Position numbers and translations under genes: made by a program. Positions 1-64,000 of a DNA stretch of 64,000 nucleotides are shown one piece after another (the stretch's first letter is position 1; each line of letters opens with the position of its first letter). The notes below the pieces were generated by a model. The model searched no databases, was not told where the DNA came from, and saw nothing but the letters and a program-made list of their open reading frames with translations. Source of the DNA: Isoetes taiwanensis (lineage: Eukaryota > Streptophyta > Lycopodiopsida > Isoetales > Isoetaceae); assembly GCA_021234155.1 (NCBI GenBank), contig JAJEKV010000034.1, positions 8,476,028 to 8,540,027 on the forward strand, in the 5' to 3' direction.

Positions 1-121
1 CTCCAGGCTTCGGCCGAAGGTGCTCAGGAACTTTCTTCACGTGCCGACCCGCTGCTACCTGCGCCATAGAGAGGGTGGGGCGCTCGCCAAACTTCCTAGC
101 TGTTTGTTTGGTGCGTGCCAT
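1..121 (-). CDS. 5' part of an ORF starting with a histone H3 tail-like sequence, probably gag of the LTR element
   Basis: The frame reads leftward from the ATG at 121-119 and leaves the window after 40 codons. It begins MARTKQTARK, identical to the first ten residues of histone H3, including the K4 and K9 positions with the ARTK and TARK contexts. Residue 11 is F, not S10. After a divergent stretch it reads VKKVPEHLRPKPG, which lines up loosely with H3 residues 35-44 (VKKPHRFRPG). The start is well supported: an in-frame stop lies at 214-212, there is no other in-frame ATG between it and 121, and the context has G at -3 and +4. Upstream on the same strand are a pyrimidine-rich leader, a primer binding site and an LTR, which is where gag of a retrotransposon should begin. 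Seen: the peptide and its position. Inferred: that it is gag. It could instead be a diverged or pseudogenised H3-like gene. The remainder lies outside the window. Confidence 0.6.
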   Translation of the reverse strand, partial: MARTKQTARKFGERPTLSMAQVAAGRHVKKVPEHLRPKPG

Positions 122-681
122 ATCTTGTGGTTCAGGAAATAGGTGACGTAAGGATGAGCAAGAGAGAGGTGAAGGTGAAGGGTTGGAGAGAGAGAATGAG
201 GTGTCAGATATTTAAAAAGGAGGGTCCCTGGGAATATTCTCCTACCATAATTACCCCTATTTATTAGCCCCCCTTATTAATTACAAGATATTTAGTAATT
301 ATTTAATTATTAATGTATATGTTAAATCTATATTAATTGATATTATACTTAAATTTTCGAATTTTTCTAATGGTTCGAAGTGCAATTTATGAATTTGCGC
401 CATTTTTCACCTGGGTCTCCGATTGGCATGATTCTTCGACCCATTTTAGGTGAAATTTGATGCAGATGCATAATTTTCACTCCAAATTTACTAGAAGATG
501 AGTTTGACTCACTCAACTTTCGTCTAACACTTAACCTAAGTCCTGACCCACTACCTAGGAGAAAAATTTTTCCCCCATTTTCGCGGTTCGATGGTGGAAA
601 TGTTTATTTCACACCCCTATAGGCCTGTTAGACTACTTTATGGTTATGGTTAGTGCTAGTTCTTGGTCAACCAAGAACATC
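122..681 (-). promoter_or_regulatory. Untranslated leader between primer site and ORF start
   Basis: No ORF of note. Next to the primer site is a perfect 9-bp inverted repeat, GTTCTTGGT / ACCAAGAAC, with a 2-nt loop (659-667 and 670-678). The middle (230-600) is AT-rich. Just before the ATG, 122-200 is pyrimidine-rich on the minus strand, as in many plant 5' UTRs. A TATA-like TTTAAATA lies at about 208-217. The hairpin may act in packaging or in starting reverse transcription; that is inference. Confidence 0.5.
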
Positions 682-693
682 GCTCTGATACCA
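682..693 (-). promoter_or_regulatory. Primer binding site, initiator-Met tRNA
   Basis: The minus strand reads TGGTATCAGAGC, the perfect complement of the 3' end of plant initiator methionine tRNA. It sits one base inside the LTR end (CACA at 698-695), the standard arrangement for a plant LTR retrotransposon. This fixes the element's direction as leftward. Confidence 0.93.
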
Positions 694-694
694 T

Positions 695-2349
695 TGTGGC
701 GGCTCCACGCTAAGCGTCGGCCCGCCGTACACTTTCGGCGAGAAATCCCCATCCGGCTCAACAACCGCATGGGCCCGCCGTCTACCCCGCACTCACGGGG
801 TGACTCTTAGTGCGGGAAGGGCTATGAAGGTGTCTTGCGGCGCCCTTCCCCTATGGGCTCCTATAACGGCCGAGGCGATAACGTCGAGAACTAGCATCAA
901 CATATACAAATACTACCTCGAAGGGTAGTGCATCACACATAAACCAAGGCAAAGATGATAATCACGAACCATAAAACATGAGAGCTCTACCCGGCTCGGA
1001 CTTCGTGGGAGGATGGTGACCCGGCTAGGCCTCAAGATAGAGCAGACCGAGTCATGGCAATGGGGGGCTGGCATCAAGGCTAATGGCTAGGGTTGACCAC
1101 TCCATCCGCCCCTCACATTGCATACTTTGCAAATGGGCTAGATCGGGGCTCGGCGGGGACTCTAGCCTTCGGATCACGCAATCCCATGGCATCACCCATT
1201 GGGACTACTCGGTTGCATCTCCCTGGTCGATGAGGCGAGGAAGGGTTGCATCTCCCCTTCCGGGATCTAGAGGTGCGTGGGTGGCTAGAGAATCGTGGCG
1301 ACACCACGATTCGTACCCGGTGAACCCCCAAAGCGAGAGCCAAGCCAACACTTGCGGCTCTCGAGGGAGGCAGGGCAACACCATTGCCCGGGAGGTGTCG
1401 GACCCATGCTCGGCCCACCGCGAAGTGACAGACCATAAGCCTAGCCCACTATGGGATCCCCGAAGCCCCCTTTCGGCGGGGATCCTCCCTCCCACTTTCC
1501 CTCTAGCCCGTTATATGGTCTTTGAGTCATATCATAGCCTCAATAGCACGGTGGGCTCCTATGCACTGGGCGCCAACTAATAGGAACTAAGGGATCTACT
1601 CTAGGAGCATACTACATATGGCTCTAGGTCTCTACCCCCTTCCCAATAAAGAGGAGCAAACATGATCAACCATCATCACATAATCATCACATCATGAGAA
1701 TAATCATAAGAAGAACATCTTAACCTAATCATACAACTAACTAATGGTTAGGGTTCCTTGATTAGGGTTCAAGATGTTGAATATGAGTTCTAGGATGGCT
1801 CTACTCTAGATACAAGATACTAGCACATCACGGAATGCTAATTCCGGATGAGCTATCACAACTACTATCCTACATACCACGCTCACGAAGCTCTCCCTCC
1901 AGATCAGGTGTGCCTCCATGGTCTCCGGAGCTCACGAGATGCGGCTCCTACTCCAGAAGCGAGGTCTACCCTTGGGGGCTCTTTGCACCGGTCTATGCCA
2001 CGACAAGCGATGTTGAAGCGGGGTTTCGAGCAGTAGGTAGGTGAATCTCACGGGTGCTAGGGCTGGAAAGAGGTCTAGGGTTAGGGTTTATGCCTATATA
2101 AGTTAGGTCCACCTAGGATGCCCGCATTGGCACCAATTGGGTGAGTCCTGTGTGGCGGTGCCCCAATAGGTTAAGGCCACGTGGATAATGGCTTAACCTA
2201 TGGTTGGCTAAGTTATGAGAATAACTTAGCCATGCCCCCTAGTGCCACAACCTATGGTATACAAGGCTATGAAGATAGACTTGTATGTGACGGATCCAGG
2301 AATATACGTATTTATGGCGTATATTCCTGGGTATCACAATAGCATCACA
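695..2349 (-). mobile_element. LTR (copy A), 5' LTR of a leftward LTR retrotransposon
   Basis: 1655 bp. On the minus strand it begins TGTGATGC at 2349 and ends GCCACA at 695, directly before the primer binding site. Termini were set by comparison with copy C, whose ends are proved by a target duplication: its LTR begins TGTGATG and ends CGTCACA. A second possible start lies at 2338. Similarity to copies B (58700-60298) and C (61729-63286) includes the block around the phrase 'ctaggagcatactac' and the GC-rich block at 695-900. Only the 5' end of this element is in the window, so its other LTR and target duplication cannot be checked. The 165-codon frame at 1083-1580 is a chance ORF inside the LTR. 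Confidence 0.85.
2076..2101 (-). promoter_or_regulatory. LTR promoter: TATA box followed by telo-box
   Basis: The minus strand has TTATATAG (2101-2094), then after a few bases TAAACCCTAACCCTA (2090-2076). The second motif matches the plant telo-box (AAACCCTAA). Copy B keeps the same order: TATA-like TTATATTA at 58903-58910 and AAACCCCAACCCTAAA at 58915-58930. Conservation between two LTRs supports a core promoter. In plants, telo-boxes occur in promoters of translation-related and cell-cycle genes; a similar role here is inference. Confidence 0.55.
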
Positions 2350-3187: not shown

Positions 3188-5040
3188 GAATTCGAGCGGG
3201 ATAATGTTGAGTTTTTTGGCTATCGCATTATACCTCAGGATGTTTCCATGGATCTAGAGAAGGTCAGCACAGTATTTGATTGGAAAACACCTTTCTCAGT
3301 TAAAGATGTACAGTGCTTCTTGGGGTTTGCCATTCTTGGGGTTTTTATCGCCACTTCATCAAGAACTATTCGGAGATTATCACGTCTCACCAGGAAGGAT
3401 GTTCCTTTTGAGTGGATAATTGAAGCAAAATCAGCATTCATCACTTTGGAGTATGCCTTTACAGCAGCACCTGTTCTTGCACACTCGGATCCTTTGCATG
3501 CCTATATTCTCGAAGCTGATGCATGAGATTTTGCTCTTGGCAGCATCTTATCGCAAGAGGGGATGATCATGAGCTGCACCCGATTGCCTATCATTCTCGA
3601 AAGTTCCAGGCTGCTGAGATCAACTATCCTATTTATGATAAGAAACTTTTGGCGATCTTTGACTCTTTTCAGGAGTGGCGACGATTTCTTGAAGGTTCTT
3701 CTCATAAGTTAACTATGTATATGGACCATCGCAACCTGTAATATTTTCAGTCTGCTCGAGTTCTTAATCGTCGTCAGGCTCGATGGCATACACAGATGCT
3801 ATCCCGTTTTGATTTCATCATCAAATTTTGGCCTGGCACACTTTAAGAAAATCCAGATTCTCTTTCTCGCAGATCCTATTTTGAACCTAAGACGGGGGAG
3901 CCAGCATTCACTCAACAATCACAGGTTATTCTAGGACTTGATCATTTCCTTCTTATGGCCATCACCTTGTTCAAGAGGCCTCATGATGCATCCTTGTTGG
4001 AGTCTATTCGAGCATCTCTTCTTTTTGACCCTTTGGCACAATATGTATTTTCACATCTTGGCTCGGCATCGTCTTCCCAGCAAATGCGGTTGGATTATGA
4101 TCATTTTGAGGCTCAAGATGGACTTCTGTTTCGTGATGGACTTTTATATATCCCGTATGGTGCTCCTCGACTTCAAGTCTTGTAGTCCTGTCGTGATTCT
4201 CCTCTCGTCAACCATTTTGGGATTGCCAAGACTCTGGAACTCGTTGCTCGAGATTATCGGTGGCCAGTTCTCCGCCGCACTATTGAGACTTTTATACGCT
4301 CCTGTGATATTTGCTATTGTGCAAAAGCTCCCAAACACCGTCCACATGGCCTGCTTCAGCCTTTACCGGTTCCAGCCGGTCCTTGGAAGAGCACTTCAGT
4401 GGATTTCAGTGTCGGGCTTCCATCCTCCCAGGGCCTTGACGCCATCCTTGTTCTCGTTGACTGCTTTTCCAAGATGGCGCATTTCATTCCTTGCAGCACT
4501 TCTACCTCCAGTGAAGCCACGACTGTTCTCTTGCTTCGAGAGGTGGTTCGACTCCATGGCTTGCCAGATACCATTGTCAGTGACCGCGACCCCCAGTTTA
4601 TTGCCAGATTTTAAAAGGGTCTTTTGCAACTCTTGTATGTGGAATGTTCACTCTCTTCCGGACATGACCCAGAGACCAACAGATAAGTGGAGCGCACTAA
4701 TCAAACACTTGAGCAGTATTTGCGATGCGTCATCAATTATCAGCAGGATGATTGGGTTGATTGGCTACCTTTGGCAGAATTTGCTTACAATAATTATGTC
4801 CATGCTTCCACGGGCCAGACATCATTCTTTATTAATTTCGGCATGCATCCCCGGTGGTCTTTCATTGCTCCTAGATGCGACTCAGCCCAGTTCCAAGGAC
4901 AGGCTCGAGAAGCTCCGCATACTCCAGGATGATCTTCAGCACCATCTCCTCCAGGCCCAAGCACGTTATCATTATCATGCAGATCAGCACCGCCAAGATG
5001 CTCCTCCTTTTGCCCCAACTAAACAGCTTCTATTCATTTA
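3188..5040 (+). pseudogene. Ty3/gypsy pol remnant (RT end, RNase H, integrase)
   Basis: Broken frames read in order: the end of the RT domain (ERDNVEFFGYRI at 3194, then VQCFLGF), the RT/RNase H connection (RLTRKDVPFEW, PVLAHSDP, ILEADA), RNase H (HPIAYHSRKFQAAEINYPIYDKK), and linker (DSLSRR). Integrase follows: a zinc-binding part (NHFGIAKT ... SCDICYCAKAPKHRP), then the catalytic core with D in VDCFSKMAHFIPC, D in VSDRDPQFIARF and E in [13 protein letters not shown]. The spacing and wording resemble chromovirus-type gypsy elements. Several in-frame stops (for example near 3524, 3740, 3845, 4184 and 4612) and frameshifts make it dead. Protease and most of RT are missing, so it is 5'-truncated. 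No LTRs were recognised. A 367-codon ORF at 3938-5041 overlaps it in the wrong frame. Confidence 0.9.
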
Positions 5041-6874: not shown

Positions 6875-9800
6875 ATGCCAATGAAGATAGTATCTTGGAA
6901 TTTGAGAGGTATTAAGGGTCCCCTAAAGAGGAAAAGGGCTCTAATTGCTCTTAGGGAGATCAAAGCAGACATAATTTTGCTACAGGAGCACAGGCTTTTA
7001 GCCTTCGAGGCCTCAAACCTGGGAAATTGGATATTCCCTAATGGGGATTCCATATGGGCCCCAGCAGATGGCACTAGAGGTGGTATCTGTATTGCCTGGA
7101 ACGGGCTCAAAAAATTAGGTTCCTTCTCCTGCCCTTCGAGCAGATGGCAAGTTGTCTTTTTGGAGGTGGAGAATGAACAAGTAGGCATTATTAATGTCTA
7201 TGCTTCTACTTCCCCTAAAGAAAGAGAGGAGCAATGGAAAAGCATGTCAGACTGGCTGCATGGACAGAATATCAACAATTGGGTTTTAAGTGGTGACTTC
7301 AACAACACCCCCTCATGGGAGCAGAAGGCAGGCAAAAAGATCAATATGTCAAAAGGAGAAAGATCTCAGTGGGATAAACTTGTGCATAATTTTTTATATC
7401 ATGCCCCTTCCTCTTCTAATGCATATTCTTGGAGCAACAAGAGGAAAGGATCTGATAGAGTATATTGCCTCCTAAATAGATATTACACCAACATATCTAC
7501 TCTAGTAGGTTGGGATAATTTGACTATAAACAATGACTGTAGCAATTCTATATCAGATCATTATCCCCAGATTTTGAACATGGGTATTCTACCTCAGAAA
7601 AGGTTTGCTGATACTCCTTTTAAGTTCAATAACAGTTTGTTGAACAATAAAGCCTTTTGTGATGATTTCACAAGGTTCTATACTTCCTTGAAGGCTTTGA
7701 ATGTAAGTGGATCAATGAAGGAATTCATAAGCAGAAGCAAGCAGGTCAAAAACTGGATCAAACAATGGGGTAAGGAATGGAGCAAAAAAATGAGGCAGGA
7801 AACCATGAGGCAAAAAATGAGGCAAAAAATGAGCAGAAAAATGAGGTGTACCTGGAAATGAAAGATGTTAGGCAGAATCTTTTCCTGGATAAAGCTAATG
7901 TGCTATTGCAATAGAGAGAAGAAACTTTGGAAAGGAAGGTCAAGCTAATTGAAGAATATGAGGCAAAAAGTTTGGCAATCAAAAGCAGAAGTTTGTATAT
8001 CAATCTTATGGATGATTGCAGCTCCAAGTTCTTCTTCAAAATTGCCAAAAGCAGGTTAATGAATAATGTGATAGTATCAGTGCAGGGTGACAGTCAAACA
8101 GGAGTTGTCCAAGCAGGAAGACATCCAGAATTTGTTCTACAATAAGTACAAAGAGCTTTTTGCTGCTAGGCACATTGATAACTGTCAAGTGTTGGAATTC
8201 TTTGATTATCTTGGTCCCAAGGATGAGCCTATTGAGGATGGACAACTTTTGGCTGTACCAATGGAGGCTGAGATTTTGAGAACCATAAAGAGTATGGCCC
8301 ATGGGAAAAGTCACGGGGGCGATGGATTGCCTCTGAATTTCTGAACATTTTTTGGGATATAATGGGTAAAGATCTCACCACATTTATCCAGGGTGCATGG
8401 CAGGCAGAAAAGTTGCACCCAACTATTAATGCTGGCTTAATTGCCTTGGTTCCAAAAGTAGACAAGCCCTGCCATTTTTGGGACTGGAGATCAATTTCAT
8501 TGACCAATGTAACATATAAAATTTTGGCTAAAATCTTTGCTAATAGACTTAAGAAAATTCTTCAGGAAAAGATTTATTTGTTCAATCAGGGTTTCTTCCA
8601 AGGAGAAGTATCCTTCATAATTTCATTGGGGCATATGAAGGTTTGCACTAAAACAAGATGGCTAATCAAGGATGTGTGCTCCAAAATTAGATTTTAAAAG
8701 GGCCTATGATACCATCGATTGGAATTTTCTTTATAAAGCCATGTCTCAGTTGGTATTTTCAAAGCCAGTGCTAAATAAGGTGGCAGGATTCAATGTTGCA
8801 GGGTGTTCAGCAGTTTTGGTTAATGGTTCCCTTCTCCCTTTTTTGAATGTAAAAGAGGAGTTAGGCAGGGCTGTCCATTGGCCCCCTTCCTTTTCCTTAT
8901 AGTAGCCGAGATGGTAACCAGGGTCATCATGAAACTGCAACAAAATGATAAGATTAGCTGCCTCAAGCTTCGATGTATGAGTGAGTCCTTGTCAGTAATG
9001 CAATATGCAGATGATACATTTGTGTTTTTAAAAAAGCAAGGGGACTGCATTCAGAACTTTCTTGCTGCCATGGATATGTTTGGGAAAGTGTCAGGGGTTA
9101 TGTTGAACAGAGATAAATGTGCAATTATTTCTGATAGCTCAGAAGACTATATTGAAGGGATTAAAGTTTGTGGTCACCAATCTGCCACTAAACTGCTGGG
9201 TTTGCCCTTGGCCCTAAATATGAGTCTACATGGCTTATGGGAACCTATAGTTACCAAAATAAAGAAACAGATGTATCCCAAAACACTCTCTTTGGCTGGG
9301 AGGGTAGAGATAATCAATAGTGTTATTATTGCTAGTTCTCACGTTTTCTTTTCATCAGCAATAATTGCAGATAAGAAATCCTATCAGGAACTGGAAGTTA
9401 TTATGAAGGAACTCATTTGGCAGGGTTCACATATGGTAGGTTGGCAACACTTAACCCTCCAAGGAAAAGAGGAGGATTGGGGTGTAAAGATCTGTTTCTC
9501 CAGGCACAGGTCTTGGCAGCAAAATTGGTATGGAGATCTTTAGTCTCTCCATCAAAGTCTCCAGCCCTTCTCCTAACAAAGTTCTGGATTGGAAAAACTT
9601 CCTTAGTGGGTAGTCCATCTACTCCTCATCATCTACCAAACTCGGCATTCTACCAGCTCAACCCATGCCCAGGAACATCTACTATCATGAGAAGAATTAT
9701 ACAAGCATGGAACAGAGTGTCTGTTTGCTTCAAGGCTTATCCAATAGAAAATGTTTCAGATGACTTTAATTTCTTTTGGCATCAGGGGTTGACAGATGAA

Positions 9801-11525: not shown

Positions 11526-12204
11526 TAAAGTATGTTGTCATGTAATAATTTCAAATAAGTTCTCAACTTAGAGGTTAGACCATGTTAATTATCTGATTGT
11601 ATGTTTACATGGTGAACTAGGTTTGCTAAGGTTATTGAGAAAGCACAAAATAAAAAGTTCAATGGTTTGGGGGGCGCGGAAAAACCACGAGCCTGTGGAA
11701 TATTAGCTCGTCGAGTTTTCTCGGTTTAGAAACTCAATCAATCCTGCTTGAAACCCGATGGATCGTGGCTTTAAAACAAAAACAAAGATGTAAATCATGA
11801 CACCAAGCAAGCGAGCTAAGGATCGACGAGTTTAGGGTCGAATCCGGTCGGGTCAACTATCACGGCGATGGCTTGGGTCAATCCGGATCTATAGTAAACA
11901 CCTTTCTGATAAATTCAACGGTTTTATTATGATTTACTAGCTTGTTATTCTATAAACAAAGACTTGAATAGCTTAACTTAGTTATTCAACTACTTGGTGT
12001 TGATTTGATTCTAGCCTTATGTTCCTAGTATGTTTATACAAGGCAATCATAGTTGAAGGTTCTTGGATTAGTGACAAATTGTGGCTCCATAAACCTAGGC
12101 GTGCATTGAGAAAATGAATACAAGTGTCAATTAAGGTTGTTAGCAAATTTGGTGGAACAATTTGTATTGAAAAGTTTTTGACAAATTGAAATATAAACAC
12201 AACA
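11526..12204 (+). repeat. Copia 5' LTR
   Basis: 679 bp, starting TAAAGTATGTTGTC and ending ACACAACA. The 3' LTR starts TGAAGTATGTTGTC, so the canonical TG has become TA here by one transition. The target duplication GGCAA lies immediately upstream. Compared with the 3' LTR it lacks about 40 bp near its start, among other small indels. Confidence 0.92.
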
Positions 12205-12205
12205 T

Positions 12206-12217
12206 TGGTATCAGAGC
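12206..12217 (+). promoter_or_regulatory. Copia primer binding site, initiator-Met tRNA
   Basis: TGGTATCAGAGC, one base after the LTR end ACAACA. It is a perfect complement to the 3' end of the plant initiator methionine tRNA. Confidence 0.95.
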
Positions 12218-12230
12218 CAAGTTGTTCAAG

Positions 12231-13185
12231 ATGTCAACCAGGTTTGGTGCCAATTTGCTAGCAACTATTGAAATGTTTAAAGGTGATACAGGTTTTCAAA
12301 TTTGGAAAGAAGGAATCAAGTCAGTTCTGGAGTTTGAGAATCTCTGGGGCCTGATTGATGGCAGTACCTTTGCCATGGCTACTTCTGCAATTCCTACAGG
12401 GTCTGGTACTGTAGGTACTAATCCAGGAGGTGGTCCAACTTTGAGTGCAAGTGCAAGCTCAGGTGTTGTGTCCACTGTAGCTGGTGGAAGCAGTCCTACA
12501 GTACAAACAGATGCCACACAAATAATGGAGGCTCAAGCCATTATCATGAGCAAGGTAGGAATTGTTTTGAAGTTAAAACTGAGAGGTAAGCAACCTAAAG
12601 AAATGTGGGAATATTTGATTAAGCATTTTGAAGTTAAAAGTTCATCTCAGAAAGATGTCTTGGAAAAGCAACTTAGAAGGCTTAAGTTGTTTGAGAAAGA
12701 TAATATAACTGAGTTCTTGGAGAAGTTTGATTCTATAGTTGCAGATTTGGAGGGTGCAGGTACTATTATAAATGATCAAAATCAAATTTTGTACTTGGCC
12801 AAGTCAGTATCCCATAATACTCATTTAGCTACATTATTTAGAAATGTGGCTACTAGCAAAGAACCATGCTGTGAGAATGATTCAAACAGAGTTTGAGCAA
12901 ACTCGAAGAGGGTTTGATGATGAAGAACAATCACCAGAAGTATTGTATAGTGGAAAAGTCAAAAGAGGTGGAAGTAGCTCAGGTATGAGTAAAGATAAAA
13001 TAGGGCCATGTTTTAAATGTAACCAGTATGGCCATTTGAAAGCAAATTGCACATTTGAAGGCAAAGTATTTAAGTGTTTTAACTGTGATGGCAAAGGACA
13101 TCTAGCTTCAAAGTGTCCAAGTCCCAAGTCTTCAACTGGAAGAGGCAGAGGTCGTGCTCGAAGTGGAGGCAGAGGAAGAGGATGA
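12231..13185 (+). pseudogene. Copia gag (capsid and nucleocapsid), frameshifted
   Basis: Starts at MSTRFGANLLATIEMFKGD 14 bases after the primer site. It contains the usual copia capsid phrases (GFQIWKEGIKSVL, LWGLIDG, KEMWEYLIKHFE, LRRLKLFEKDNITEFLEKFD). An unusual serine/glycine/threonine-rich insert lies at about residues 62-110. Around 12850 the frame changes, so the first frame stops at 12896 and the nucleocapsid continues in another frame to 13185. The nucleocapsid has two CX2CX4HX4C knuckles, CFKCNQYGHLKANC and CFNCDGKGHLASKC, then a glycine/arginine-rich end. It packages element RNA into the particle. Confidence 0.88.
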
Positions 13186-58699: not shown

Positions 58700-60298
58700 T
58701 GTGAAGTTCCGGGAGAATATACGCCTACAACACGATATTTTGGACCTATCACTATACAAGTCTACCCTTGTAGCCTTGTATATCTTAGAAAGTGGCAGGT
58801 GCACATCTAAGTTAAATGCTTGACTTAGATAACCCTTTGATAAGGCCCATTTCACATAGCCTTATCCTATTGGGCAAACCGCATCCCACATGGGATCCTA
58901 ACTTATATTAGCTTAAACCCCAACCCTAAACCTCTTTTTCCCCACCCTAGCACCCCTCGGCATCTACGCACTCAAACCCGCTCAGCACCGCTGTCAGGGC
59001 ATAGTCCAGTGCAAGCAGCCCCTCCTGAGTGATTCGATCTGGAGCAAGTGCCTTTTGACCAACCAAGACCATGGAGACGCCAGATTGGGAGGGAGTGCTT
59101 CCGGAGCAGGTATGTAGAGTAGTGTTTTGGTAGATCATCTGAAGTTAGCACCCGCATGGGTTAGTATTGCATTCAGAGTAGCCATCCTAGAACTCCTTTA
59201 TTCAACATCTTGAACCCTAATCAAGGAACCCTAACTCCAGAATTAGATAGGTATGATTAGGTTAAGATGTTTTATGATGACATCATGATATGATGTTATG
59301 TGATGTTGGTTGATCATGTTTGCTCCCCTTGTATTGGGAAGGGGGTAGAGAACTAGTAGCCAATACGTAGTATGCTCCTAGTTAGATCCCTTAGTTCCTA
59401 TTAATTACGGGCTCAGCATAAGAGCCCACCGGCTAGGAGGCTATGATGTGACTCAGCATTACACAACGGGCTAGAGGCACACGGATGGGGGATCCTTGGC
59501 TGAGCGTGGCTACCGGGGATCCCAAAGCCGGCTAGGCCTATGGTCGGGTCACTTTGTGTGGGCCGTGGCATGGGTCCGACACCTCCCGGGCAATGGTGTC
59601 CGCCTCCTCGTGAGTTGCAAGTGCCTGCTTGGCCCCGCTTTGGGGGTTGTCGGGTACGAATCGCGGTGTCACAATGTATTCTAGCCTGAACCTCTAGACC
59701 CCGGGAGGGAGGGAGGGAGGGGTGGGAGGGAGGGAGGGAAGGGAAGGAAGGAACCCCAATGAACCTGGGAGATAACCCTGAGTAGTCTTGATGGTGATGC
59801 CAGAGATCATGTGATCCTAAGACTAGAATCATGCCGCAGCCCGGATCTAGCTCATTCTCCAAAGTATGCACAGAGGGGCGATGAGTGGTCAACCCTAGCT
59901 TATTGTCTATAGCCAGCCCCGCCATTGTTATGACTCTGGCCCCGCTTATCTTGAGGCTCAGCTGCCCACTATCCTCCTTATTGAGCTTTAGCCATGGGTA
60001 GGAGCTCTCATGTTTTATGGCATATGCTTACCTTCTTTGTAGTTATAGATATGTGGATGAGCTACCCTTCGAGGTAATATGATGTGTTGTATTGTTAGTT
60101 CGACGTTGTTTATGCTCCGTTGTGATAGGAGCCCATAGGGGAAGGGGCGCTAAAAGACACCTTTCCCCAGAACCCGCACCCCGCACAAGGTCATTCCAAA
60201 GTGCGGATAGACTGAGGGCCTGCATGGCCGGCGGACCAGATGGGGATTTCCTACGGAGTGTACGGCGGGCTACCAGATATTTAGTAGGGAGCGCCACA
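58700..60298 (+). mobile_element. LTR copy B, 3' LTR of the H3-tail element family
   Basis: 1599 bp, TGTGAAGTTCC to GCGCCACA, homologous along its length to the reverse complement of copy A. A polypurine tract lies upstream. No primer binding site follows, and the bases flanking it (GAGAA and TCTAT) do not match, as expected of a 3' LTR. It contains a (GGGA)n expansion at 59703-59752 that is absent from copy A, and a TATA/telo-box block at 58903-58930. Its 5' partner is not in the window. Confidence 0.82.
59703..59752 (+). repeat. (GGGA)n microsatellite in LTR B
   Basis: About 50 bp of GGGA/GGAA repeats, private to this LTR copy. Confidence 0.8.
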
Positions 60299-60534: not shown

Positions 60535-61600
60535 GACATTACCTACTAGAGTTGAATCAATTACACTTGCAAACCCAAAATGCTCAACCCATCAGCTTTG
60601 TCCAAGAATAGAAGTCTCATACCATGGCTTTACGCCATTCGGGTCGTAGTAAGATTATTTTCTCTTCTCAAATTTTCAGCTACCTTGTTTCCTTTCTCTT
60701 TTTCCCTTTTGCTATTTTATTTGAGAGAATTACTATTCTTGCGGTCTTACCATGCTTTTCTTTTAAGGATATAGTTGGATAGCTTAAGAATAAAACATGT
60801 TATACCAATATCCGTAGATCTTGCTTATAAGTTGGTTCATCAATGCAAGAATTGATAGACTCCGTACATGCAAGGCATGTGTGTCTCGATAATTCAAAGT
60901 GGGCTCCATTCTATTCCCTCGCTTTTGCTAACCATCTTGTTTGTCTCGTTGTTTTCCGAAAGTTTGTTAGAGGTAGATAATTTTTTATTGAAACCCTAAA
61001 GCGAGATCAGCATACATGGAATGCAATCATTGATGCCACTACCAAGCCCGGAGAAGGTAAGATCATACTTCCAATTTGTTTTTTCTGAATGAACTTTAAG
61101 GCATGAACGCAGACTAAGTTTACATTTTCAAACATCCCAAAGGCAAGATGAATATAGAAGACATGAATAATTGGCAAAATATCCTGAGGTTGTTGTTAGA
61201 ATACACCTTACTAGATATGGGCATTTGGAGGAGGCAATGAGTGTCGATCAATTGCAAGAGAAGCAAGATGTAGTGTCATGGTGTACGATGATTTCTCGGA
61301 TATGCACACCATGGTAAAAACCGCCTTTGCCTTAAAAATATTTTGAAAAATGCAAGGTAATGGTGTGGTTCTAGACAGCCTTGTCTTTCAAAGCATCATA
61401 AAAAAGCATTCTCGCATACAAGAATCGCCATAAAATAAGGGAAGTGCATTCACTGCTTGCTTTTTTGAAAACAAATTCACCAAACACCTGGCCATAAGGA
61501 GTGCCCTCCTAGATATGTCCGAAAGTGCCCCGCTTGACATGTCTTGATATGTATAAGAAGTGTAGAAAATCAAGCTTTAGGCACATAGAATCTTTGATAC
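60535..61600 (+). pseudogene. PPR gene fragment, copy 1 (broken)
   Basis: Broken frames give PLS-class PPR phrases: FANHLVCLV, FIETLKRDQHTWNAIIDATT, then (after frame changes) AFALKIF, KMQGNGVVLDSLVFQSIIKK, LAIRSALLDMSESAPLDMS. The pattern of a repeat ending in 'RD..TWNAII.A' is typical of plant organelle RNA-binding PPR proteins. Stops and frameshifts throughout show it is non-functional. The first ~700 bp is duplicated at 63293-64000 (offset about 2758 bp). Sequence before about 60830 is non-coding, with pyrimidine-rich tracts. Confidence 0.75.
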
Positions 61601-61728: not shown

Positions 61729-63286
61729 TGTGACGCCCCTAATATATACGGCCCCCCGCATATACATACAGGGACTTCCCTTCCATGGCAATCAGCTCAT
61801 GAGCAGGCCCTCCGCCTAACTCTGGACCATCCGTGAGAGAGATGCCCGGGTGAAGGACACCCGAGGTGTCATTCGCCCACGCCTTCAATGGGACTCCTAA
61901 GTTGCTAAGCGTTGAATACATGTTAGCACACAAAGATAAATCATATATAAATAACCACCATGAAGGGTGGCCCATCCATCCAAGTACTAACGGCAAAGAA
62001 TATGCATCTAATCCTAAGGAAAACACCCCAAACCCCCATTCTCTACCCCCGCCTCACTCCCCGTGAGGATGGACTCGACGCTCTGGCCTCAAGAGATCAA
62101 CAGACGTAGGTATAACCCGGGCGCTATCGGCATAGAACAAAGGCTAGGGTTGTCCACCCATCCACCCTCCTGTGCACACTTTGCAGATGAGTCTAATCAT
62201 GCTATGGCATCACTATAGCCTTCCTGAGACGCAGACCAAGGTATCACCCTTCGAGCTACTCCAGGTTCATGAAGCCCTGGTCCGATGAGGCGTGTCAGGA
62301 AGTGTCCCCTCCGTGATCGCAAGCCGCTCCATGGGTGGGTTAGAGAATACGTGCGATCAGCTTACCCCGCATCCGCACCCACTTACTCACCCTAAATCAC
62401 TAAAGCAACGTGATGCCCCATACGGTCACACCTCTGCACCCGTGGAGTGTCGGCCCATACCCGCCCCTCTACGGATCGGCTATCGTGCCTAGCTATCAGG
62501 AGTCCTGTGAGCCTTGTATGTTCGTGGCAAGACCCCACCCCACTTCACCATCAAGCCCTTCTCCTCGTGTGCTGGGCAATCCCATAGCATCCATGACTCG
62601 GTGGTCTCTTGTGTGCAATGTGTCAAAACTAATGGGAATAATACGTGGCTCTATCTAGGAGCATACTACAATACATGGGCTCAGAGGTCTCTACCCCCTC
62701 GAATCCCCCATCTCCCAGTGCTAACTAAGCAAAGAACTACTAAAACCATCAACCAAAGCACATACGAGAGACTAGAGATAAGAATACTCACCATATCAAT
62801 CAAGGGTTAGCCTAACAGTAAACCACAGAGAAAAATGTAGAAAGAACACATCACGTAGAGGTGCTATGCTATAAATCATCAAGGTAACCCCATCGACTAA
62901 CCACAAATCGGTCTTGGGCTGCTCCAGCTCGACTAATCTTAAGTACCGGGGTACGCTTCTCCTCCTCCATCTCCAATTGTTTTAATTCGAATTGGGGCAC
63001 AAAAAGCCCTAATTTGGGTGTCCAAAATGGAAACCCCGCGCTTTGCCCAATCGATTTGGGCTGTGTGGCATGTCATTAATTAACTAATTTGGTATTTTAG
63101 CCCTTTTTAATATTAGGATAAGACCTAAATTCGAATTAGGGTTTTGGGTTAGGTTTCCCACCTTTATAATTTAATTATTAACATAGCTAATTTTAGCTTA
63201 TATGAATAATTAATGTGCCATTAATTATTCATAGTGACGGTCATGTATTTATACTTAAATATGCGATAAATATGTGGAACATCACA
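61729..63286 (-). mobile_element. Solo LTR (copy C) with 5-bp target duplication
   Basis: 1558 bp. On the minus strand it begins TGTGATGTTCC at 63286 and ends CGTCACA at 61729. TAGTA flanks both ends exactly (61724-61728 and 63287-63291), proving the boundaries and the 5-bp duplication typical of LTR elements. There is no internal region, primer site or polypurine tract, so it is a solo LTR left by recombination between two LTRs. It matches copies A and B. Confidence 0.92.
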
Positions 63287-63292
63287 TAGTAG

Positions 63293-64000
63293 GACATTAC
63301 CTACTAGAGTTGAATCAATTACACCGCAAACTCAAAATGCTCATTGTCTAAGAATAGAAGTCTCGCATCTATGGCTTTACGCCAAACCGGGTCGTAGTAA
63401 GATTATTTTTCTTTACTCAAATTTTCAGCTACCTTGTTTCCTTTCTTTTTTCCTTCTTAGTATTTTATTTGAGAGAACTACCATTCTTGCAGGTCTTACA
63501 TGCTTTTCTTAAGGGATATAAGTAGCTTAAGGATAAATGTATTATACCAATATCTAGAGATCTTGCTTATAAGTTGGTTCATCAATGTGCAAATCTGATA
63601 GACCTAAGGCATGTGCAGGTTCTGATAATTCAAAGTGGGCTCCATTCTATTCCTGTTTTTGCTAACCATCTTGTTTGTCTGTTTGCTTCTTCTGAAAATT
63701 TGTTAGAGGCAGACAATCTCTTTATTGAAACCCTAAAGCGAGATCAGCATACATGGAATGCAATCATTGATGCCACTACCAAGCCTGGAGAAGGTAAGAT
63801 CGTTTGTCCACTTGTTTTTCAGAATGAACTTTAAGGGCATGAACGCAGACTAAGTTTACATTTTCAAACATCCCAAAGGCAGTATATCATTGAACAGGGT
63901 AGAAGACTCCATGAATATATCATAGAGAATTGGCAAATATCTGAGGTTGTTGTTAGAATACAATTTTACTAGATATGGGCATTTGGAGGAGGCACAGAGT
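63293..64000 (+). pseudogene. PPR gene fragment, copy 2 (continues beyond the window)
   Basis: Highly similar to 60535 onward. One frame is open from 63530 (after a stop) to 63834: RDLAYKLVHQCANLIDLRH, VQVLIIQSGLHSIPVFANHL, VCLFASSENLLEADNLFIET, LKRDQHTWNAIIDATTKPG. This covers about two PPR motifs. There is no ATG at its start. After KPGEG the expected continuation (MNFKGMNAD, then IEQGRRLHEYIIENWQISEV) is shifted into other frames with a stop at about 63870. Either it is a pseudogene or a 29-bp GT..CAG segment is removed, which would be too short for a plant intron. Confidence 0.75.

Follow-up and report, generated by a model that had tools for sequence, protein, structure and literature searches.

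Why should an open reading frame (ORF) just downstream of a retrotransposon long terminal repeat (LTR) begin with the N-terminus of histone H3? The question was raised by the left end of a 64,000-nucleotide (nt) stretch of the Isoetes taiwanensis genome (contig JAJEKV010000034.1, here C1039; hereafter the window), in which the first ten residues of a minus-strand product, MARTKQTARKFGERPTLSMAQVAAGRHVKKVPEHLRPKPG, are MARTKQTARK, identical to the H3 N-terminus. A sequence-only reading of the window had taken this ORF for the start of a gag gene whose product carries an H3 tail. In this study, we searched the genome (1,658,258,908 bases in 1110 contigs) for further copies and analyzed their coding capacity, selection and relatives. 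The ORF (ORF1) was found to belong to a family of retrotransposons, and its intact copies are predicted to encode a long histone H3-like protein with an H3-like start, a charged insert and a C-terminal H3 fold.

ORF1 and its product

First, the H3-like start proved to be real. MARTKQTARK-type 10-mers are expected by chance about 4e-9 times per 64-kb window (both strands), and this expectation, together with the recurrence of the start in other copies, ruled out a chance match. The exact 20-nt ORF1 start occurred 58 times in the genome and not at all in a reversed control. A copy search with window positions 700-1 gave 2060 first-look candidates, of which the best 40 were scored; as only the best candidates were scored in this and the other searches, all copy numbers are lower bounds. 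Leader and ORF1 start were 92-100% identical in these 40 copies. Thirty of them were read as they stand and began with MARTKQT (29) or MARNKQT (1); most of these ORFs break later, and one, L021, is open for 365 residues. Among the 40 mapped copies, the M, A, R, K and Q of MARTKQT were each found in 40/40 and each T in 39/40, so the same N-terminus does recur in the family, as the sequence-only reading had envisaged. The eighth position was variable (A in 20, Y in 17 of the 40).

Second, the unchanged translation of L021 (P0002) ends in a complete H3 histone fold. The only Pfam match above the cut-off was Histone (PF00125, E 3.6e-28, residues 251-361), and the PDB search returned histone H3 (E 2.5e-31, residues 254-364), with 176 distinct sequences at E <= 0.001. 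A tblastn search of the genome with P0002, in which the best 112 of 21,557 candidates were scored, gave 113 rows; among these listed matches 82 had no stop, and 66 of the latter covered residues 1-365 with 78-100% identity. For detailed comparison we assembled 23 intact copies, namely 20 tblastn matches plus L021, L035 and L037 (L038, intact in the tblastn list, was left out). They are 361-385 residues long and alignable throughout, one being retrieved from residue 5, and they start with MARTKQTARK (10 copies), MARTKQTYRK (9), or MAQTKQTARK, MARSKQTARK and MARTKQTGRK (one each), the start of one being cut. In this protein (ORF1p), a charged insert, about 225 residues long, separates the H3-like first residues from the complete H3 fold. 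The insert contains a Ser-rich acidic part, the motif PKKKGKEKV, which resembles a nuclear localization signal (NLS), a helix-like part rich in Arg and Glu, another acidic part and the motif WTRYN/WTKYN. The NLS-like motif was present in 21/23 intact copies and WTRYN/WTKYN in 23/23, with HGPNS between the latter and the fold in 21/23. Basic and acidic stretches alternate strongly along the L021 protein (charges of +9, -11, +7, -15, +16 and +7).

Because ORF1 continues into an H3 fold, the element encodes a whole H3-like protein. The sequence-only reading had set such a continuation against its own proposal. It occurs in the intact copies and removes the idea of a tail on Gag, and the fold makes the element stranger than a Gag with a tail, as a whole H3-like protein is encoded.

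The window copy itself (L001) is broken. Its frame is open for 205 codons from position 121 before a stop, and the H3 fold lies downstream in other frames (P0002 residues 9-332 and 211-357 match 4-948 and 581-1024 in the reverse complement of L031); as assembled, this copy does not encode the whole H3-like protein. The likeness of its product to H3 is limited to the first ten residues and does not extend to the H3 tail as a whole (K14, K18, K23, K27). A further likeness that had been claimed, to H3 residues 35-44, is present in VKKVPEHLRPKPG, but it is weak and not significant taken alone: with the first ten residues excluded, 420, 370 and 141 of 5000 shuffles reached the observed score in local, global and soft-gap comparisons, respectively. 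The 40 tail residues alone matched nothing in Pfam; in the PDB they gave a single weak match (E 0.46), to a chimera of Cse4 carrying the H3 tail, and a protein database search with residues 1-40 yielded no match at E 10 among 6 candidates. The ATG at 121 is the first of the open stretch but is not, as had been read, the first in frame after the primer site: another in-frame ATG occurs at 403, where it is closed by a stop.

Upstream of ORF1 are a leader, a primer-binding site (TGGTATCAGAGC), which we take to be of the initiator-Met-tRNA type, and an LTR. A matching LTR begins directly after the polypurine tract AAGGGGGGGAGAA at L031 (about 9247 in the reverse complement) and in L032. The TATA-like TTTAAATA in the leader is a possible internal promoter, as read from the sequence. 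Together with an ACGTCA word it had suggested that the leader derives from a host H3 promoter; this was unsupported, as only words of 11-12 nt were common with the 0.8 kb upstream of 4 host H3 genes. A host H3 gene lying beside an LTR was rejected, as the same leader and ORF occurred in 40/40 scored copies and gag-pol followed in 4/4 loci.

The element and its neighbours

At all four loci analyzed by tblastn (L031-L034), the gene order was ORF1, a spacer, ORF2, gag and protease, reverse transcriptase (RT) and RNase H, integrase and chromodomain, with a polypurine tract and LTR at the 3' end and a total length of about 13 kb. Judged by these domains, the element is a Ty3/gypsy chromodomain retrotransposon (chromovirus) with an additional histone ORF. 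Its gag is a separate ORF (P0004) about 2.5 kb downstream of ORF1, with a capsid domain (PF03732, 1.6e-16) and a protease (RVP_2, 1.3e-9); the CCHC motif CFRCFQPGHRTHDC is visible, its Pfam match being below the cut-off (14.4 of 20.8 bits). The pol domains, with E-values derived from different copies, were RVT_1 (1.6e-12) and RT_RNaseH (2.7e-29) in P0007, and integrase rve (1.3e-10) and Chromo (1.7e-11) in P0005 and P0006. The closest PDB match of the chromodomain was CHD1 (4.6e-7). The sequence-only reading correctly assigned the H3-like start to an LTR retrotransposon, in which it opens the first ORF, but ORF1 is not gag.

ORF2 (P0003), of about 460 residues, lies between the histone ORF and gag in 4/4 loci of this family (family 1); it matched nothing in Pfam, and nothing in the PDB with an E-value below 0.33. 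In the spacer that follows ORF1, a GC-rich 78-nt unit is present twice (81%; L032:570-647 and 773-850).

LTR pairs were found at 4/4 loci compared, and a polypurine tract before the 3' LTR at 2/2 loci inspected. The two LTRs differed at 36 of ~1274 aligned bases in L021, 44 of ~1113 in L005, 2 of 184 in L004 and 13 of ~732 in the window element, whose pair may not belong to one insertion. Because the pairs differ little, the insertions are not old. In C1039:8463063-8478365, which covers window position 1 and beyond, the far LTR of the window element directly precedes the primer site, leader and ORF1 of L020, and the two elements seem to share one LTR in a tandem-array-like arrangement. Coordinates of the features of the window and of ORF2 are shown in Table 1.

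Table 1. Features of the window, and examples of ORF2 in other loci
Feature	Position	Strand	Description
ORF1 start, 40 codons	1..121 (121-2)	minus	product MARTKQTARKFGERPTLSMAQVAAGRHVKKVPEHLRPKPG, open to the window edge
Leader, primer site to ORF1	122..681	minus	560 nt long, with 7 ATGs before that of ORF1
TATA-like TTTAAATA	216-209	minus	about 90 nt upstream of the ORF1 ATG, followed by a CT-rich stretch
Primer-binding site TGGTATCAGAGC	682..693 (693-682)	minus	one base past the LTR
5' LTR	695..2338	minus	1644 nt, TGTGATACCC...GCCGCCACA
Other gypsy pol remnant	3188-4797	plus	27-34% identical to pol of the H3 element
Non-LTR retrotransposon	6875-9543	plus	ORFs for an endonuclease (4.2e-7) and a reverse transcriptase (7.6e-7)
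Copia-type gag	12186-12896	plus	Retrotran_gag_2, 2.3e-12; second TGGTATCAGAGC at 12206
Diverged LTR, same group	58700..60297	plus	71% identical to the LTR at 695..2338; preceded by AAGGGGAGAA, 3'-LTR-like; separate element
0.7-kb direct repeat	60535-61242 and 63293-64000		82.7% identical; LTR pieces of H3-carrying families between and beside
LTR piece	61729..62698	minus	76.6% identity with the C1018 element LTR (second H3-carrying family)
ORF2	L032:1117-2538	plus	example of ORF2
ORF2	L079 reverse complement, 2-1363		example of ORF2
ORF2	L077:296-1471		related version in sister families

Selection on ORF1 and related families

To analyze selection, the 40 copies were mapped on L021 and changes present in at least three copies (shared) were compared with private ones, with stops counted as nonsynonymous; shared changes were taken as having arisen before or during the spread of the family, and private ones mostly after insertion. 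Synonymous and nonsynonymous changes numbered 155:81 (shared) versus 125:219 (private) in the whole ORF1 (p 3e-12), 39:12 versus 28:61 in the fold (Fisher p 2.7e-7), 33:7 versus 14:20 in the tail (p 2.9e-4) and 80:60 versus 82:137 in the insert (p 3.2e-4), and an analysis of 30 copies pointed the same way. The constancy of the tail is partly selected for, as the copies were picked by likeness to window 700-1, which includes the 120 nt of the tail; the fold lies outside this query, and at least 196 of its 291 bases were kept in each of the 40 copies.

Among the 23 intact copies (subgroups of 9 and 14), the ratio of nonsynonymous to synonymous substitution rates (dN/dS) was 0.04-0.06 for the fold, 0.11 for the tail and 0.08-0.13 for the insert, with mean dS of 0.5-2.0; pairs with saturated dS were dropped (40/126 between-group pairs kept for the fold), and means near 2 are unreliable. 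These copies were picked for protein likeness and intactness, which lowers dN, but in the fold a dN of 0.02-0.13 stands against a dS of 0.5-2, a gap far larger than such a bias would produce. Both analyses show purifying selection on ORF1 while the family spread, and the tail shares in it, in line with the sequence-only reading.

A canonical H3 search of the genome, in which the best 150 of 9022 candidates were scored, revealed 15 host H3 genes (96-98% identity, 136 residues; for example, L073-L076) and 135 other H3-like stretches (71-86%). Eight of the 135 were read, two of them with their element context, and the remainder are presumably element copies; H3-fold counts in such genomes would be badly inflated by transposon copies. 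All eight end in an H3 fold, and seven have an N-terminal domain starting with MA(I/N)TKSAPDP or similar; L070 has a related N-terminal domain (hhalign E 2e-23) with the start METVKQVYKR. The C1018 element carries LTRs that are 94.9% alike, a primer site, an H3-fusion ORF1 and an ORF2, with matches to gag, integrase and chromodomain (RT was unmatched in that copy), and the C1007 element gave matches to ORF2, gag, RT, integrase and chromodomain. In these sister families (families 2 and 3), dN/dS was 0.03 for the fold and 0.13 for the N-terminal domain (21 pairs, 7 copies).

The fold was 63-65% identical to host H3 in family 1 and 85-88% in families 2 and 3. An origin from the centromeric variant CENH3 was unsupported, as the folds were closer to host H3 (63-88%) than to Arabidopsis CENH3 (48-57%), a partial comparison, as host CENH3 was not found. 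One host gene, L076, carries T31 and H87, residues that we take to be H3.3-like.

These results bear on the possibility that a host H3 gene was taken up once and simply multiplied with the element without serving it. Plant LTR retrotransposons are known to capture host genes (excerpts of PMC7264820), and many copies of ORF1 are broken. However, dN/dS is far below 1 along the ORF, synonymous changes are in excess among the shared ones, and the second family group behaves likewise; gene conversion from host H3 is opposed by the low identity of the family 1 fold to host H3. We therefore consider passive capture very improbable.

A different question, which concerns origin and not function, is whether H3 was acquired independently by the window family and by the sister families, or whether one capture was followed by replacement of the N-terminal part. 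The fold tree left the relationships among host H3, family 1 and families 2/3 unsplit and does not decide between one and two captures, and the N-terminal parts of families 1 and 2 showed no homology (hhalign E 0.48). On the other hand, the H3 ORF occupies the same position in both elements, the ORF2 of the C1018 element is related to P0003 (tblastn E 7e-8, 22% identity, L077), the LTRs are partly related (72.5% over 437 nt) and pol is 41-89% identical by piece. Two separate captures appear plausible, with a probability somewhat short of even.

Possible roles of the ORF1 protein

In the four element proteins compared, all six residues that we take to form the H3-H3 interface (C110, H113, R116, D123, L126 and I130) were kept (4/4), and the 11 positions presumed to contact DNA were kept except K53 (H in both family 1 proteins) and R52 (K in one). 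K64, K115, T118 and K122 were also kept, and the family 1 tail retains K4 and K9 and has lost lysines 14-27. K53, K56 and K79 are changed in family 1, and a glutamine at position 56 resembles acetylated K56. Such a pattern would be expected if the protein could still pair with H4 and wrap DNA while offering different marks, and we therefore favour a nucleosomal H3 variant, used for tethering or for escape from silencing, over both a soluble decoy and a particle protein. Beyond a selected H3-fold protein with an NLS-like motif, what follows is what we infer. ORF1p would be imported into the nucleus via PKKKGKEKV, pair with host H4 through the kept fold and become part of nucleosomes or of H3-H4 tetramers, either at copies of the element itself or in target chromatin. 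The tail, which has K4 and K9 but no K27, and the large insert may then alter the set of readers and silencers that bind there or, alternatively, may serve as a foothold for the chromodomain-ended integrase or the particle. We give this account about an even chance. As to its purpose, we favour targeting or tethering on the one hand and protection from silencing on the other; the data do not separate these two.

More tentatively, the element might carry its own chromatin, with the H3 variant replacing host H3 at new or old element copies and the integrase or particle recognizing the self-made nucleosomes; we regard this extension as rather doubtful. If true, the element itself would determine which tail marks can be placed on its DNA, as K4 and K9 are retained, K27 is lost and K56 is replaced by M, Q or H, and the composition of nucleosomes would be the direct object of an arms race between host and element.

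Several observations weigh against a nucleosomal role. As assembled, ORF1 was intact in just 4/40 leader-picked copies (L021, L035, L037 and L038), although errors of the nanopore assembly may contribute to the number of broken copies. K56 is changed in family 1, to M in subgroup A and to Q, once H, in subgroup B, and K79 is changed to R or V in the two family 1 copies compared. The region between tail and fold (residues 41-265) has no H3-like sequence. By our reading of the alignment, two aromatics of the chromodomain cage, the first and the third (HP1 Y24 and Y48), are missing, as in plant group II chromodomains (excerpts of PMC3350952), and because of this a direct reading of ORF1p K9 methylation by the integrase is not favoured. 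Finally, ORF1p may be a useful cargo rather than a requirement for transposition.

The kept tail could also be explained by a soluble decoy, in which non-nucleosomal ORF1p would occupy K4/K9 readers, methyltransferases or histone chaperones with its tail and so weaken silencing. Within the tail, ARTKQT and K10 (K9 of H3) vary least, the tail is itself constrained, and family 1 has lost most other tail lysines. However, the strongest constraint is on the fold and not on the tail, position 8 varies between A and Y, and the sister families keep a fold close to host H3 but are tail-less, starting with MAITKSAPDP or METVKQVYKR. A decoy thus seems unlikely to us. The position of ORF1, first in the element and before gag, and its alternating strongly basic and acidic stretches would suit a particle protein that holds the element's RNA or cDNA in the virus-like particle by means of its basic fold and charged insert, the histone fold acting only as a nucleic-acid chaperone. 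Yet the element already has a Gag with a capsid, the NLS-like motif is kept in nearly all intact copies, and conservation of the six H3-H3 interface residues goes beyond the demands of nucleic-acid binding alone, which makes this role improbable.

Transposon silencing works largely via histone H3 marks, and a selected, element-encoded H3-like protein next to a chromodomain integrase suggests that elements can fight or steer silencing by supplying the marked substrate. It becomes testable whether a mobile element can change the nucleosomes on its own copies.

Comparison with known systems

The element belongs among retrotransposons that have captured a host gene, the gene here being that of a histone. 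We know of no other retroelement-encoded histone, and none was found in the open-licence PMC literature searched. Histones were unmentioned in excerpts of PMC7264820, PMC8566536 and PMC10541799, and in PMC12786077, where the word occurs 8 times, the histone passages in the excerpts did not deal with an element-encoded one. In viral contigs, two back-translated patterns gave 0 matches; for P0002 relatives, 37 pattern stretches were obtained, none of which was confirmed.

Compared with host H3, ORF1p has the ARTKQTARK start and the C-terminal fold in common, but is three times as long. With plant chromoviruses the element shares Gag, protease, RT, RNase H, integrase, C-terminal chromodomain, LTRs, primer site and polypurine tract; it differs in having an H3-like ORF1 and ORF2 before gag and LTRs of 1.6 kb. 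No H3-like pre-gag ORF was seen for the lycophyte and other plant chromoviruses in excerpts of PMC3350952. Phalaenopsis Gypsy elements carry an AlkB N6-methyladenosine (m6A) demethylase as an additional ORF (excerpts of PMC9289625) and are similar in that a domain of host origin has become fixed in a lineage of Gypsy elements, where it could plausibly help against host surveillance, whereas the cargo here is a core histone. The text on non-canonical domains in the same excerpts names no histone, the screen being of angiosperms, with no lycophyte.

Viral histones are a further parallel. Bracoviruses encode an H4 with an extended tail, which joins host nucleosomes and acts through that tail, and giant viruses encode H3-like and fused histones (excerpts of the review PMC9145170, in which retrotransposons and retroviruses are unmentioned). 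Both cases involve a core histone encoded by a parasite, some with N-terminal extensions. Those histones belong to DNA viruses, whereas here the H3 is that of a retroelement and the added sequence lies between tail and fold. Our results extend virus-encoded histones from DNA viruses to retroelements.
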